Below are positions 16,167-29,329 of a DNA stretch of 34,832 nucleotides, one piece after another. The stretch's first letter is position 1. Each line of letters starts with the position of its first letter. The notes beneath the pieces are model-generated. The model was given only the letters and a program-made list of their open reading frames with translations, was not told where the DNA came from and did no database searches. This DNA is from a virus. The stretch covers positions 1-34,832 of the IMG/VR virus record IMGVR_UViG_3300046170_000152. One strand, given 5' to 3'. A program made the translations under genes and the position numbers.

Positions 16167-16643
16167 TTAACCCTTTTCATCTGTAGCTTTATGGTTAATA
16201 ACCATGGGAGCTGTACGCTTAGACGCTTTATCTATAAGGTTCTTTGCTTTTAACTCAATGTTACTCGCCACCTGTTCGCCGATCCTAGTTTTTGCGCTGG
16301 TTAAAACTTGGTTTAGATCAATCGTTGCGTTTACTGTCTCCACCCGGTCACGCCAAGAGTCTGCGTCTCGGTTTTTGAGGTAAAAGATCTGCGCAGTTAC
16401 ATTACCCTCGTTAGCCGATTTGAATAAACTGTTCGAAACTCGCGCCAACCCACGCGCCTCGCCCCTTTTTATAGCCTCCGATAAATCCGAACTACGCTTT
16501 TTATTTTTATTAAAAGTATCCCAAGAAATGCCTAAAGCACGCGATATTTGAGTCGGCCCGAGACCTTGCGCGGCAAGTTGCTCAACCTTGTCTATATCTA
16601 TAACAATAGGTTTTCTTCCGGGTTTTTTCTTAGGTTTATCCAT
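16167..16643 (-). CDS. terS: Terminase small subunit (158 aa)
   Basis: The N-terminal ~55 residues hold a helix-turn-helix (KVEQLAAQGLGPTQISRALG, ISWDTFNKNKKRSSDLSEAI), followed by a helical oligomerisation segment (RVSNSLFKSANEGNVTAQIF) and YLKNRDADSWRDRVETVN. This LKNRxxxxWRD motif is typical of phage small terminases. The protein recognises the packaging start and presents DNA to TerL. The start overlaps the stop of the methyltransferase gene by 8 bases. The gene order with terL and portal supports the call. Confidence 0.85.
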   Translation of the reverse strand: MDKPKKKPGRKPIVIDIDKVEQLAAQGLGPTQISRALGISWDTFNKNKKRSSDLSEAIKRGEARGLARVSNSLFKSANEGNVTAQIFYLKNRDADSWRDRVETVNATIDLNQVLTSAKTRIGEQVASNIELKAKNLIDKASKRTAPMVINHKATDEKG

Positions 16644-17844
16644 CTTTTATATCATTAATTAACTCATTATAAGTCTTATCTAGTTCAAAATGCACTGCTT
16701 CCTTACCAGTAAAGTCTTGCCAGCGTTTAATGATCGTATCGCAATACTTAGGATCTAACTCCATAATCATGCAGTCTCTATTATGTTTTTCACAAGCGAT
16801 AAGAGTAGAACCACTACCAGCAAAACAATCGTGGATTATGTCGCCGCTTTTACTACTATTTAAAATAGCTTTCTCAATTAACTCTACAGGTTTTTGTGTA
16901 GGGTGAACATAAGAAGTAGATGCATCTCTGCCCATCTTCCAAACATCAGACTGACCTTTATCGCCGTACCATTGACCACCACAGTAAAATATAAACTCGT
17001 GTTGTGGTCTGTAATTACTATTACCTAAACCAATACTTTTTTTATCCCAAACAATACAGGCTTTAGGAGTTACTTCTATAGAATCTAAAGCGTTATAAAA
17101 CTCAGTATAAGTTCGCCAAGTAAAGCAGACATAAACAGCAGCACCCTCTTTAGCACTAATAACAGAGTTACTAATACTATCGGAAACCATAGTCATTAAA
17201 TTATCGCCCTGTAAATCGTCGTTAATAATCATGCCATGCGCTTTAACTTTAGCACCTTTAGGACTACTTCCAGCCGCACGACCTCCTCCATAACTCATAC
17301 CATAAGGCGGATCAGTAAAAACCATGTCAGACTTATTGCCGTCCATAAGTTTATTAACTGCATCAATACTAGTGCTATCACCACATAAGAGCCGGTGATT
17401 ACCTAAGATCCAAAGATCACCCTCTTTAGTTATAGGATCTTCAATTAAATCAGGGACTTTATCTTCATCAACTAAACCCTCAGTAGGATCAGCGAGTATG
17501 TCGTTTATTTCTTTATCATCAAAACCAAGTAACGAAACATCAAACTCTAAGTCATTTAAATCTTCTAACTCAACTTTTAACATATCAAAGTCCCACCCGG
17601 CATTTAGAGCCAAGCGATTATCAGCTATTACATAGGCTTTCTTTTGTGCATCTGTTAAGTAGTCTAAACATATAGTCGGCACAGTATCTAAGTTTAATTT
17701 TTGAGCAGCTTGTACCCGACCATGACCAGCAATAATTGTCCCGGACTCATCTATTAAAACCGGATTAGTAAAGCCCGAACTCTTTAATACTAGCCATGAT
17801 TTGACTAACCTGTTCTTTATCATGCGTCCTGCTATTACGCGCAT
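16636..17844 (-). CDS. ParB-like / DNA methyltransferase, main frame (frameshifted N-terminus)
   Basis: A two-domain DNA-modifying protein. ParB/sulfiredoxin-like part: GFTNPVLIDESGTIIAGHGR with VQAAQKLNLDTVPTI. A linker follows, then a beta-class N6-adenine or N4-cytosine methyltransferase: WILGNHRLLCGDST, the catalytic DPPY (residues 178-181 of this frame), HPTQKPVELIEK and the AdoMet-binding FAGSGST (341-347). DPPY before FxGxG gives beta order. The real N-terminus lies in another frame at 17777-17926. The first ~23 residues of this frame before GFTNP are therefore not native. Repaired length is 429 residues. It may protect phage DNA from host restriction; the ParB part suggests DNA binding. 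It ends 8 bases inside terS. Confidence 0.85.
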   Translation of the reverse strand: MRVIAGRMIKNRLVKSWLVLKSSGFTNPVLIDESGTIIAGHGRVQAAQKLNLDTVPTICLDYLTDAQKKAYVIADNRLALNAGWDFDMLKVELEDLNDLEFDVSLLGFDDKEINDILADPTEGLVDEDKVPDLIEDPITKEGDLWILGNHRLLCGDSTSIDAVNKLMDGNKSDMVFTDPPYGMSYGGGRAAGSSPKGAKVKAHGMIINDDLQGDNLMTMVSDSISNSVISAKEGAAVYVCFTWRTYTEFYNALDSIEVTPKACIVWDKKSIGLGNSNYRPQHEFIFYCGGQWYGDKGQSDVWKMGRDASTSYVHPTQKPVELIEKAILNSSKSGDIIHDCFAGSGSTLIACEKHNRDCMIMELDPKYCDTIIKRWQDFTGKEAVHFELDKTYNELINDIKDG

Positions 17845-25505: not shown

Positions 25506-25902
25506 TGTTGTACTCCTCTCTCATAATTGCCGCCCATAGTTCGGTTGACATAGTCGATGCTATGTTGAAATCTTCTAGGGGAAATAATTTATTTTTATGT
25601 GCGTAGACATCCGGGATGGCTACTTTCCAATCTGACCTATCTGCTCTAAACCATAGGCAGGGTAACAAATTTACTTTTAATGCTTGTCTTACTGATTGAT
25701 CCCACCAGTTTTTTAAATCAGCTTGTGATACTGCTTTGCGTCTTTTGACTTCTATGGCATATGCTGGACAACCCAGTAAATCATGCCCGCCACCAAATGT
25801 TTGACTGTAATTAACCTCAAGTTTTATACCTAGCAGGCTATCTATGACATCTATCACTTCTCGTTCTCCTCTTCTCCCCTTGTTCCGGGAATTAATACTC
25901 AC
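25477..25902 (-). CDS. PD-(D/E)XK nuclease, Holliday-junction-resolvase-like (141 aa)
   Basis: The GTG start at 25902 overlaps the preceding TAG (TAGTG). Residues 5-20 (SRNKGRRGEREVIDVIDSLL) and the core FGGGHDLLGCPAYAIEVKRR (Asp, Glu and Lys of the metal site) are typical of Hjc- or RusA-substitute nucleases in phages. The C-terminal half (LKNWWDQSVRQALKVNLLPC, LWFRADRSDWKVAIP) is also familiar from that group. The enzyme probably resolves branched DNA before packaging or acts in recombination. No key residue appears to be missing. Confidence 0.75.
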   Translation of the reverse strand: MSINSRNKGRRGEREVIDVIDSLLGIKLEVNYSQTFGGGHDLLGCPAYAIEVKRRKAVSQADLKNWWDQSVRQALKVNLLPCLWFRADRSDWKVAIPDVYAHKNKLFPLEDFNIASTMSTELWAAIMREEYNIGTRDIITE

Positions 25903-26111
25903 TAAGCGTGTATTGGTTTTTTATACGACGCGTTTTCTATGGACTCTATTTCGTCTAACGAATACCAAACCTTTTGACCTATTTTAAAATAGCCGGGTGC
26001 GTGACCATGCGCTCTTTTGTTTGCTAAAGTACGAACAGAAACACCCCACCTTTCACTAAGTTCTTTAGGCGTGATTTTTTTAGTGTCCTCTAAAATATAA
26101 TTGTTATTCAT
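25902..26111 (-). CDS. Excisionase-like / MerR-type HTH protein (69 aa)
   Basis: I place the start at ATG 26111 (MNNNYILEDTKKITPKELSE), with CAGGAG 9 bases upstream; the longer ATG at 26150 is less likely. The core KELSERWGVSVRTLANKRAH, APGYFKIGQKVWYSLDEIES is the HTH_17 pattern of excisionases and small MerR-like regulators (helix-turn-helix, then a wing ending in the W/YSLDEI strand). It is the first gene of the minus-strand replication block and lies opposite the DUF3310 gene. It may act as excisionase for the integrase or as regulator of the early block. Confidence 0.65.
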   Translation of the reverse strand: MNNNYILEDTKKITPKELSERWGVSVRTLANKRAHGHAPGYFKIGQKVWYSLDEIESIENASYKKPIHA

Positions 26112-26187
26112 TGTGCTTAACTCCTGTGGTAAGATTTTACCTCTAAACATTTTAATAATGCAAGTGAGTGAAAGAAACTAATTCAAA

Positions 26188-26264: not shown

Positions 26265-26678
26265 ATGTCTATAGATGAAGCAACAGTAAAAGAATGGGAT
26301 GCAGCAGTGAGAGCAACTAGAAAACAAGTCGGGGGGATGCATTACAAAAAAGTTTCTAAAGGAATGCAACCAGTAGAATTTAGTTACGCTCATGGCCTCT
26401 CGCCTAATTTAACCAATGTAGTTAAATACATAGTAAGAGAGAAAGATGATCGTATAGGCGATTTATTAAAAGCTATTCATTACATAGAGTTAGAACTAGA
26501 GTTAGTTCATAAGGTAGATCCCACCGGGAATAAATTAGCAGAAGAAGATTCAGATGAGTTTATACAATTTTGCAAAGAACAATTCTTTTTATACAAAAGA
26601 GATCAAGAGGGTAATTTAAACTGGTATCAATTTGTCGGTGAGAATTACAATTTATTACAAAAACAATTTAATAAATGA
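26265..26678 (+). CDS. DUF3310 protein (137 aa)
   Basis: AAGGAG stands 6 bases before ATG. The DUF3310 core is at residues ~20-80: GGMHYKKVSKGMQPVEFSYA, GLSPNLTNVVKYIVREKD, DLLKAIHYIELELE. This helical domain is common in phages, often near nucleotide-metabolism genes, and has been linked by annotation to nucleotide kinases. Its biochemical role is not settled. The C-terminal ~50 residues (EFIQFCKEQFFLYKRDQEGN) are extra. The stop overlaps the next start as ATGA, so it is translated together with the PP-loop gene. Confidence 0.75.
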   Translation: MSIDEATVKEWDAAVRATRKQVGGMHYKKVSKGMQPVEFSYAHGLSPNLTNVVKYIVREKDDRIGDLLKAIHYIELELELVHKVDPTGNKLAEEDSDEFIQFCKEQFFLYKRDQEGNLNWYQFVGENYNLLQKQFNK

Positions 26679-27508
26679 ATCCTTACAAAATCGATGGGCC
26701 AGCGTTAATTAGTTTTAGCGGTGGAAGAACATCCGGTTTTATGTTGTGGAATATTATTCAAGCACATGGCGGATCTCTTCCTGAAGATATTCATGTGGTA
26801 TTTGCTAACACCGGGAAAGAAGCACCTGAAACTTTAGATTTTGTAAATGATATTTCTAAAAAATGGGGCATAAAAATTAACTGGCTTGAAATGTATTTAG
26901 GAGATGAAAGACCGATTTATAGAACCAAAGAGGTTACTTACGAAACAGCGGCTAGAAATGGAGAACCTTTTGAGGCTTTATTAGACCATAGAAAATATTT
27001 ACCTAATCCTGTTACAAGATTCTGCACATCTGAGTTAAAAATAAAAGTTATGTATAGATTTATGAGAAAAATTAAAGGTTACAAAGATTGGTACAATGTA
27101 ATTGGTCTTAGATATGATGAGCCTAGAAGAGTCTCAAGTGCTATGAAACAGTATAATACTTGGACTAATCTTACACCCATGCATGACGCTAAACATACTG
27201 TTGAAGATGTTTCAAATTTTTGGAACAGTCAAAATTTTGATCTTAACTTAACCAACGCAAATGGAAAAACACCAGCCGGAAATTGTGACTTATGTTTTTT
27301 AAAAGGCATGGATACAACTATTTCAATTTTAAAAGAAAGACCTGAAATGGCTGATTGGTGGATTAAACAAGAACAAAAATTTGGAAAACATTCAGGTGCA
27401 ACTTTTAGAAAGGATCGTCCAAATTACATAAGATTATTAGATATAAGTAAAACTCATCAAACATTGTTTAATGACGATGACCAAATGACTTGTTTTTGCC
27501 ACGATTAA
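26675..27508 (+). CDS. PP-loop ATPase of the PAPS reductase / DndC-like superfamily (277 aa)
   Basis: The PP-loop is SFSGGRTSGFML (residues 13-24), followed by VVFANTGKEAPETLDFV (41-57) and the Arg-rich NVIGLRYDEPRR (141-152). Five cysteines stand out: Cys117 (TRFCTSELKIK), Cys204 and Cys207 (GNCDLCFLKG), and Cys273 and Cys275 (CFCHD end), enough for a [4Fe-4S] cluster. The superfamily activates substrates with ATP or reduces sulfated nucleotides. Stand-alone phage members have no proven function; nucleic-acid sulfur modification is one suggestion. No other Dnd-like gene is visible. It probably forms a two-gene operon with DUF3310. Confidence 0.75.
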   Translation: MNPYKIDGPALISFSGGRTSGFMLWNIIQAHGGSLPEDIHVVFANTGKEAPETLDFVNDISKKWGIKINWLEMYLGDERPIYRTKEVTYETAARNGEPFEALLDHRKYLPNPVTRFCTSELKIKVMYRFMRKIKGYKDWYNVIGLRYDEPRRVSSAMKQYNTWTNLTPMHDAKHTVEDVSNFWNSQNFDLNLTNANGKTPAGNCDLCFLKGMDTTISILKERPEMADWWIKQEQKFGKHSGATFRKDRPNYIRLLDISKTHQTLFNDDDQMTCFCHD

Positions 27509-27703: not shown

Positions 27704-28765
27704 TTAGCCATTCATGTATTTTTTCTGAATATAATTACCAACTATCTGCGCGTTCTCCATAGAGTCCTCTTCAAATATGTGCGCGTATCTTTGCGTCGAC
27801 TGTAAATCAGCATGACCTAATAAATCGCCAGTCTCTTCTAACTTACTTAACGACTTACGCGCCCAACTGCCGAAGCTATGTCTGAGGTCGTGCATTCTTA
27901 CATCTTCTATCCCGGCGGCTTTTCTTATACTCTTCCACATTCTAGCTGGCTCTTTAATACCAAAAATAGTTTCTGTATCTCTAGGTATAGAGTTAATAAT
28001 ATTTAACGCTTGGTTAGATAAATAAATAACTCTTGGCTTTCCGTCTTTATCGGTTTTATGTTCTTTAAGAATAATTTTATTTATATGTAAATTGCTCCAC
28101 TTAGCTTTACCTAGTTCGCCTTTTCTTGCACCGGTTAAAATACATAACCAAATAAACTTAATAGAGTTTGGATAGTCTGTACTTTTTGCTCTAGCGTTTA
28201 ACTCAGTTACCAAGTTATTTAATTCTAACTGTGTTAAATATCTTTCTCGTTTTTCCTCTTTATTTTTTTTAACAAAAGTAGCTGGATTAACTTCTGTTAA
28301 AGATAAAGCTATAGCATTATTAAAGGTGGCCCGAACAAGATCCACAACTCTATTAGCAGCATATTTATAATTAACAGATATATCATCATGCATTCTTTTA
28401 ATATCACCCCTGTTAATATCTTTTATTTTTTTACTGCCGATCGGTTTGTTAATGTACTTGTCATACATTCTCTGCATATCATCAATACGCTTAACACCTC
28501 TTTTGCGACAGTCTGTTAAGTAAGATTGAAATATGTCTTTAAAAGTTTCGCCTAACTTAGCCTCTCTGCGATCCTGCATGGGATCTTTGCCCCTAGCTAT
28601 ATCGCCCAAAAGCATATAAGCCATATCCCTAACAGCGTTTATTGGTAAATCCAAAGACGCTATTTTCATTTCGGTTTTTTTACCAGCTATCCTGTAGTAA
28701 AGATAATAACCAGTTTTAGTTTTTCTTAATTGTCGTATGTCCCGGTCGACTTGGTATCTTGCCAT
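27704..28765 (-). CDS. int: Tyrosine integrase (353 aa)
   Basis: I place the start at ATG 28765 (MARYQVDRDIRQLRKTKTGY), where GGAG lies upstream; the ATG at 28777 contains that site. The N-terminal arm-binding part is YYLYYRIAGKKTEMKIASL; a core-binding domain spans ~75-160. The catalytic domain is complete: Arg214 (LTGARKGELGKAKW), Lys237 (KEHKTDKDGK), His292-x-x-Arg295 (MHDLRHSFGSWA), His318 (LLGHADLQST) and the nucleophile Tyr327 (TQRYAHIF). The enzyme inserts the phage at the host site by recombination at attP, which I find at 29190-29228 upstream. It shows that the phage can be temperate. Confidence 0.92.
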   Translation of the reverse strand: MARYQVDRDIRQLRKTKTGYYLYYRIAGKKTEMKIASLDLPINAVRDMAYMLLGDIARGKDPMQDRREAKLGETFKDIFQSYLTDCRKRGVKRIDDMQRMYDKYINKPIGSKKIKDINRGDIKRMHDDISVNYKYAANRVVDLVRATFNNAIALSLTEVNPATFVKKNKEEKRERYLTQLELNNLVTELNARAKSTDYPNSIKFIWLCILTGARKGELGKAKWSNLHINKIILKEHKTDKDGKPRVIYLSNQALNIINSIPRDTETIFGIKEPARMWKSIRKAAGIEDVRMHDLRHSFGSWARKSLSKLEETGDLLGHADLQSTQRYAHIFEEDSMENAQIVGNYIQKKYMNG

Positions 28766-29016
28766 TTTTTGCTCCATTTTAAATGTCTTATTCCAAAATT
28801 TTCACTCGCATTGCGCAAGTTAATTATTTTCTTTTCGAGGTCTGTATAGGTCTCCCAATCTATAACCTCGGTTCTTGTTCTCCCGCATCCCTTACAACGA
28901 TCATCGTCAGGCATAACGCTAGTAGAACAAACTCCAATACAAGGGTTATCTGCAACGCTCACACACTTACCTAAAGTTTTAGATAAAGATGTAAATGTTC
29001 CAGTTTCCGCTTTCAT
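28726..29016 (-). CDS. DUF1289 domain protein (96 aa)
   Basis: I place the start at ATG 29016 (MKAETGTFTSLSKTLGKCVS) rather than 29064, since the longer form would run over the left integrase arm repeats. The DUF1289 signature is complete: NPCIGVCSTSVMPDDDRCKG, CGRTRTEVIDWETYTDLEKK, with four cysteines in CxxxC and CxxC pairs, probably metal-binding. DUF1289 proteins are small proteobacterial proteins of unknown function. The C-terminal ~20 residues overlap the integrase start by 40 bases. In a phage this may be a passenger gene picked up from a host. Confidence 0.68.
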   Translation of the reverse strand: MKAETGTFTSLSKTLGKCVSVADNPCIGVCSTSVMPDDDRCKGCGRTRTEVIDWETYTDLEKKIINLRNASENFGIRHLKWSKKWQDTKSTGTYDN

Positions 29017-29029
29017 AATAGTTGTAATC

Positions 29030-29049
29030 CATCCGCCACTCATCCGCCA
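29030..29049. repeat. Left pair of arm-type repeats CATCCGCCA
   Basis: CATCCGCCA at 29030-29038 and again at 29041-29049, eleven bases apart, so on the same face of the DNA helix. The same paired arrangement occurs on the other side of the tRNA-like core. Most likely these are integrase arm-binding sites. Confidence 0.6.
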
Positions 29050-29189
29050 AAATAACAGTAACAAGTGTGAATGATTATTACCTCTGTCATAGATTATATT
29101 TCCAAAAGAGTCAAAAAAGCAAGGAATTATGCGGGTAAAATGATTGAGTGTGATGTGTAGTTATTTGTTAAGATGTGCCATTTAGAAAA

Positions 29190-29228
29190 TCCCAAACCAG
29201 GTGCGCTACCAGACTGCGCTACTCCCCG
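29190..29228 (-). other. attP core: 5' half of a tRNA-Pro(TGG) gene
   Basis: On the minus strand, 29228-29190 reads CGGGGAGTAGCGCAGTCTGG and TAGCGCACCTGGTTTGGGA, which from memory is the start of a proteobacterial tRNA-Pro with anticodon TGG: acceptor strand, D arm (AGCGCAGTCTGGTAGCGC) and 5' anticodon stem and loop. The match ends right after the anticodon (next TTTTCTAAA). A tRNA piece beside an integrase gene is the classical sign of a phage attachment site. No complete tRNA can be folded from it. Confidence 0.8.
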
Positions 29229-29290
29229 AACCGCAGTTTTAAGCCAAAAATAAGCCTAAAACCAGTTATGAAAAATTACTTATATATACT

Positions 29291-29329
29291 CATCCGCCAG
29301 CTATCCGCCAAGCTAATTTAACTCCGCCA
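29291..29329. repeat. Right arm-type repeats ATCCGCCA (pair plus one variant)
   Basis: CATCCGCCA at 29291-29299, TATCCGCCA at 29302-29310 and the variant ACTCCGCCA at 29321-29329. The first two are 11 bases apart, as in the left pair. Together they frame the tRNA-Pro core asymmetrically (141 bases on the left, 63 on the right), as in lambda-type attP sites. Confidence 0.58.

Follow-up and report, generated by a model that had tools for sequence, protein, structure and literature searches.

A half tRNA gene upstream of an integrase gene

The DNA analysed here (the window) is the whole 34,832-nt stretch of the virus record IMGVR_UViG_3300046170_000152 in IMG/VR. Its minus strand carries a tyrosine integrase gene and, separated from it by 412 bp on the same strand with the integrase downstream, a 39-base segment that resembles the first half of a tRNA-Pro gene. 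The features of this region, with reference to the nearest relative (L003) and to one contig of a more distant sister pair (L004), are as follows.

25902..26150, minus strand: HTH_17 protein (below the Pfam cut-off) that may be an excisionase or regulator
27704..28777, minus strand: tyrosine integrase, 357 aa (PF00589, E 3e-17; R218, K241, H296, R299, H322, and Y331 in the alignment)
28726..29064, minus strand: DUF1289-domain ORF lying between the core and int; its start is likely the ATG near 29016
29031..29049, minus strand: pair of TGGCGGAT copies (11 bp apart) on the integrase side of the core, candidate P' arm sites kept in L003
29093..29098, minus strand: perfect TATAAT, candidate -10 element of the phage's own DUF1289-int promoter (sequence only)
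29190..29228, minus strand: putative attP core, a tRNA-Pro(TGG) 5' half that begins with the acceptor 5' strand and closes with the anticodon loop (by tRNA-Pro comparison)
29190..29196, minus strand: anticodon loop TTTGGGA, presumed 7-bp strand-exchange (overlap) region (tRNA-Pro identity ends here; 5-7-5 stem-loop symmetry of attB)
29229..29291, minus strand: phage DNA predicted to form the 5' flank of the rebuilt tRNA
29292..29310, minus strand: pair of TGGCGGAT copies (11 bp apart) on the upstream side of the core, candidate P arm sites kept in L003
29313..29714, minus strand: 133-aa gene on the other flank of the att site, with a homologue at the same position in L004 (45% identity)

The reverse complement of 29190-29228 is CGGGGAGTAGCGCAGTCTGGTAGCGCACCTGGTTTGGGA, which consists of an acceptor 5' strand (CGGGGAG), a D-arm, an anticodon 5' stem (CCTGG), and a loop (TTTGGGA) with the anticodon TGG. 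The tRNA resemblance broke off right after the loop, the following bases, TTTTCTAAATGG, being non-tRNA. The tRNA-Pro genes of phage and plasmid records matched the 39-mer at 90-95% identity with E values down to 1e-8, and complete tRNA-Pro genes in the retrieved contigs were identical to it at 33 of 33 bases (bases 7-39) or at 37 of 39. Because of these matches, a chance resemblance to tRNA-Pro is excluded by the comparison. No complete tRNA gene identical to the 39-mer at all 39 bases was found among the sequences searched. ARAGORN called no complete tRNA in the window, and the tRNA 3' half was absent from it, only the 5' half being carried. With the missing 3' half supplied from a complete phage-borne tRNA-Pro, the fusion to the 39-mer was called as tRNA-Pro(tgg); the native stretch around the 39-mer, taken without the fusion, gave no tRNA call. 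An Rfam covariance scan of the att regions returned no tRNA match, since its models miss isolated halves. The earlier note, made from the sequence alone, had placed the 5' half of tRNA-Pro(TGG) at these positions of the minus strand, and both its coordinates and its strand were confirmed exactly by the sequence comparison.

The integrase aligned with the R-K-H-R-H-Y residues of the tyrosine family, and its N-terminus was arm-binding-like at a score below the Pfam cut-off. Candidate arm-type repeats flank the core: the window has five TGGCGGAT copies (0.38 expected in its whole length), of which four lie within 280 bp around the core as two tandem pairs, one on each side. These pairs look like integrase arm sites, to which the integrase would presumably bind. 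The exact 39-mer was found in only one other IMG/VR contig (L002/L003), in which the whole arrangement, including the TGGCGGAT repeats, is kept and whose integrase is 97% identical to that of the window. Between the window and L003, the core was 100% conserved and the non-coding att region (29065-29312) was 97-100% identical, compared with 95.4% for int. Because both flanks of the 39-mer are phage DNA that is conserved in this second contig, its origin as a contig-end or integrated-prophage artefact is ruled out by the alignment of the two contigs. The setting of 29190-29228, with an integrase, paired arm-like repeats, and conservation, appears to be that of an attP and is well supported as such; like the 5'-fragment islands described below, it has the 5' end of the tRNA and lacks the 3' end.

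Several further observations were made on the neighbouring genes. The DUF1289 ORF, which is probably co-transcribed with int, is conserved in L003, and at this place L004 lacks an ORF of at least 80 aa. At the DNA level, the 133-aa genes of the window and of L003 were 71% identical, against 94-98% for the neighbouring genes, and an allele swap at this att-adjacent gene is possible. A phosphoadenosine phosphosulfate reductase-like gene (PHROG 424) lies on the plus strand at 26675-27508, against the direction of most genes, and a DNA methyltransferase fused to a ParB-like nuclease domain (PHROG 498) is encoded at 16636-17844.

Predicted integration into tRNA-Pro(TGG)

Because the half-tRNA setting is that of an attP, the best prediction is that the phage would, very probably, integrate into the host tRNA-Pro(TGG) gene. 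We consider it highly likely that 29190-29228 is the attP core and that integration into this gene proceeds by an anticodon-loop crossover with paired arm sites. The tyrosine integrase would bind the paired TGGCGGAT arm sites, two on each side of the core, and the core would recombine with the host tRNA-Pro(TGG) gene, the crossover presumably falling within the anticodon loop. One junction would then consist of the phage 5' flank, the phage 5' half, and the host 3' half, forming an intact tRNA-Pro, and the other would consist of the host promoter, an orphan 5' half, and the phage DUF1289-int operon on the same strand. The rebuilt tRNA would presumably be expressed from phage DNA, and the host tRNA promoter may read into int.

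The intact tRNA at one junction would have a phage front because it is the 5' half that the phage carries. As the earlier note had proposed, the rebuilt host gene would thus keep its own 3' half, while its 5' half and upstream DNA would come from the phage; this part follows from the geometry, and expression from the phage side would be presumed. The same note had also assigned a promoter to the phage, which was not borne out. The best promoter-like site in 29229..29291, TTTTCA-N16-TATTTT ending 18 bp before the tRNA, was equalled by 17.5-21.5% of shuffles, that is, it was no better than chance, and a stricter sigma-70 scan of the 5' flank of the core gave no promoter.

The portal protein was nearest to those of spring-water metavirome phages and Sinorhizobium phage phiM5 (41%), with pelagiphage HTVC106P at 34%. 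The phage is probably temperate and marine with an alphaproteobacterial host, as judged for habitat and host from its relatives and from the tRNA halves. A likely integration target is identified here for an uncultured marine phage.

Integrated copies were searched for in two collections. Alignment of the integrase against GTDB contigs (~85,000 genomes), among which close hosts may be absent, gave only 24-37% identity in unrelated MAGs. In IMG/VR, no second copy of the 39-mer was found beside host DNA, and one Desulfobacteraceae genome held no match with up to three mismatches allowed. Neither attL/attR junctions nor a host genome for the window phage were found by the IMG/VR 39-mer search and the GTDB integrase scan. 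The exact match in a genome with attL/attR, to which the earlier note had looked for support, was accordingly not obtained, and its claim of integration into the host tRNA-Pro(TGG) gene stands as the best prediction from the integrase, the repeats, and the conservation. A segment matching no bacterial tRNA-Pro, or related prophages integrated elsewhere, had been named as observations that would speak against the claim; neither was seen, the tRNA-Pro matches being close over 33 or 39 bases but none of them 39 of 39.

Known 5'-half systems and alternative explanations

Attachment sites formed by a tRNA 5' half have been described previously. In the cyanophages P-SSP7 and S-TIP37, the 39-bp attP is the first half of tRNA-Leu, and integration was experimentally shown; for S-TIP37, it was detected by PCR and was abolished in int and attP deletions (PMC8776855). 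These phages are like the window phage in being marine and in having a 39-bp tRNA first half with an adjoining tyrosine integrase, whereas they differ in the tRNA (tRNA-Leu), the cyanobacterial hosts, the phage group, and the position of attP, which lies downstream of int in P-SSP7 and S-TIP37 and upstream of int, on the same strand, in the window. In the Islander data, 159 of 3919 tRNA islands carry a 5' fragment, and an anticodon-centred crossover is common (2083 of 3919) (PMC4383910); the anticodon loop is a recognised crossover sublocation (PMC4383910, PMC8371274). The 5'-fragment islands share with the window an attP with a 5' tDNA fragment, the window being a virus contig without mapped integration. 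In archaeal pTN3-like elements, the att site lies in the tRNA 5' half and the integrase promoter drives expression of the rebuilt tRNA (PMC8371274); the authors of that review remarked that such a 5'-half situation is seldom seen in bacteria. Unlike the window phage, these elements are archaeal and have a suicidal integrase that is split upon integration. The window site joins a known, uncommon class, and its 5'-half design is not new. The earlier note had described 5'-half carriage as unusual, which holds for its frequency in Islander, but the cyanophages, the islands, and the pTN3-like elements were already known.

A variant compatible with the attP reading is that, as in T7-like cyanophages, the site serves only rarely or transiently, in a minor share of infections, and stable lysogens do not form. 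For S-TIP37, integration was seen in 0.3-1% of infected cells and lysogeny was not stable (PMC8776855), and no related prophage was found in the ~85,000 genomes, though close hosts may be missing there. The window, however, holds nothing directly bearing on integration frequency, and we regard rare use as a possibility on the unlikely side.

The segment might otherwise be what remains of a phage-borne tRNA-Pro gene after loss of the 3' half, with no part in integration. A degenerate tRNA-Pro(TGG) 5'-half pattern gave at least 120 matches in IMG/VR; among the matches listed, at least 112 were complete tRNAs and at least eight were halves without the 3' half, so that a complete tRNA-Pro with such a 5' half, from which a relic could derive, is frequent in phages. 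However, the segment lies beside the integrase and between paired repeats, and it ends exactly at the anticodon loop, the classic crossover sublocation. Its full conservation in L003, within a region more conserved than int, is also unlike decay, and we hold a relic to be very improbable. A tRNA-dependent lysogeny of the mycobacteriophage type, in which the host tRNA is destroyed and a phage-encoded tRNA complements it, is a known scheme that agrees with a tRNA-targeting tyrosine integrase, but it needs a short core (~10 bp) and a complete phage tRNA of the same isotype (PMC10865867), whereas the core here is 39 bp and ARAGORN found no tRNA in the possibly incomplete record; with the required phage tRNA absent from the window, this scheme was rejected as extremely improbable.

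Opposite halves in a sister pair and further tRNA-Pro halves

With 29190-29228 taken as an attP core, the most interesting lead came from a sister pair of IMG/VR contigs (L004/L005) that carry the opposite half of a tRNA. Their integrase is 60% identical to that of the window, the closest after L003, and they are like the window in having a homologous flanking gene (45%), arm-like repeats, and an anticodon-loop boundary. In contrast, their half belongs to tRNA-Val(TAC) and is its 3' half, opposite to the half of the window with respect to the crossover. It lies upstream of int at L004:4824-4868, and at the same place in L005, runs from the anticodon loop to CCA, and is bracketed by AAGGTACG repeats. 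In the window and in L004/L005 alike, the tRNA and int share a strand; relative to the crossover, the half of L004 is on the side of int and that of the window on the far side. The best plasmid matches of the tRNA-Val 3' half were mostly rhizobial, which hints at an alphaproteobacterial host. Shared gene order with L004 was unconfirmed beyond the 133-aa gene, as the next genes did not align by BLASTP, and in a group of 37%-identical integrases (L006-L019) no tRNA half was found near int.

We are evenly divided on whether, within one integrase lineage, the tRNA core can reverse its orientation with respect to the arm sites. If it can, such a reversal would decide whether host or phage supplies the promoter of the rebuilt tRNA. 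The sister pair makes it testable how integrases change which tRNA half they carry, and what becomes of a host tRNA once its upstream sequence is phage DNA.

Several phage lineages have a tRNA 5' half as their attachment site, and tRNA-Pro(TGG) is used repeatedly. About nine further phages with a tRNA-Pro 5' half were found beyond the window, among the matches listed and with a Microcystis phage included, and a tyrosine integrase convergent with the half adjoins at least five of the eight IMG/VR halves listed. Six of these phages (L044, L046, L070, L087, L130, and L020) are like the window in having a tRNA-Pro(TGG) 5' half beside a tyrosine integrase. Their integrases are 27-48% identical to that of the window (P0001) in partial alignments and are convergent with the half, and their flanks are GC-rich. 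A -35-like element, TTG[AC][CG], is present upstream in all six and absent in the window. This motif lay 37-49 bp upstream in 7 of 10 half-tRNA phages, compared with 24 of 99 complete phage tRNA-Pro genes, a weak comparison because the motif was picked post hoc.

In one of the six, a 55.9-kb IMG/VR record (L070, also G005), the 39-base half is found at 1-39 and 55854-55892, exactly at both ends of a record without host flanks, as would be seen if a prophage had been trimmed at its att repeats, which the two copies probably are. Two copies of the half in another record (G008) were considered as attL/attR and rejected, as they belong to the 99-bp terminal repeat of a circular genome. In Microcystis phage Mvi-Yong1342-1 (L020; PP496355.1, 20118-20156), the tRNA-Pro(TGG) 5' half adjoins a XerD-like gene and is flanked by AATGTGCCG repeats; as in L004/L005, this matches the window in having direct repeats around a tRNA half beside an integrase, which speaks for the attP reading. 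This phage looks proteobacterial, and its true host may not be Microcystis. Its tRNA half sits within an annotated hypothetical CDS.
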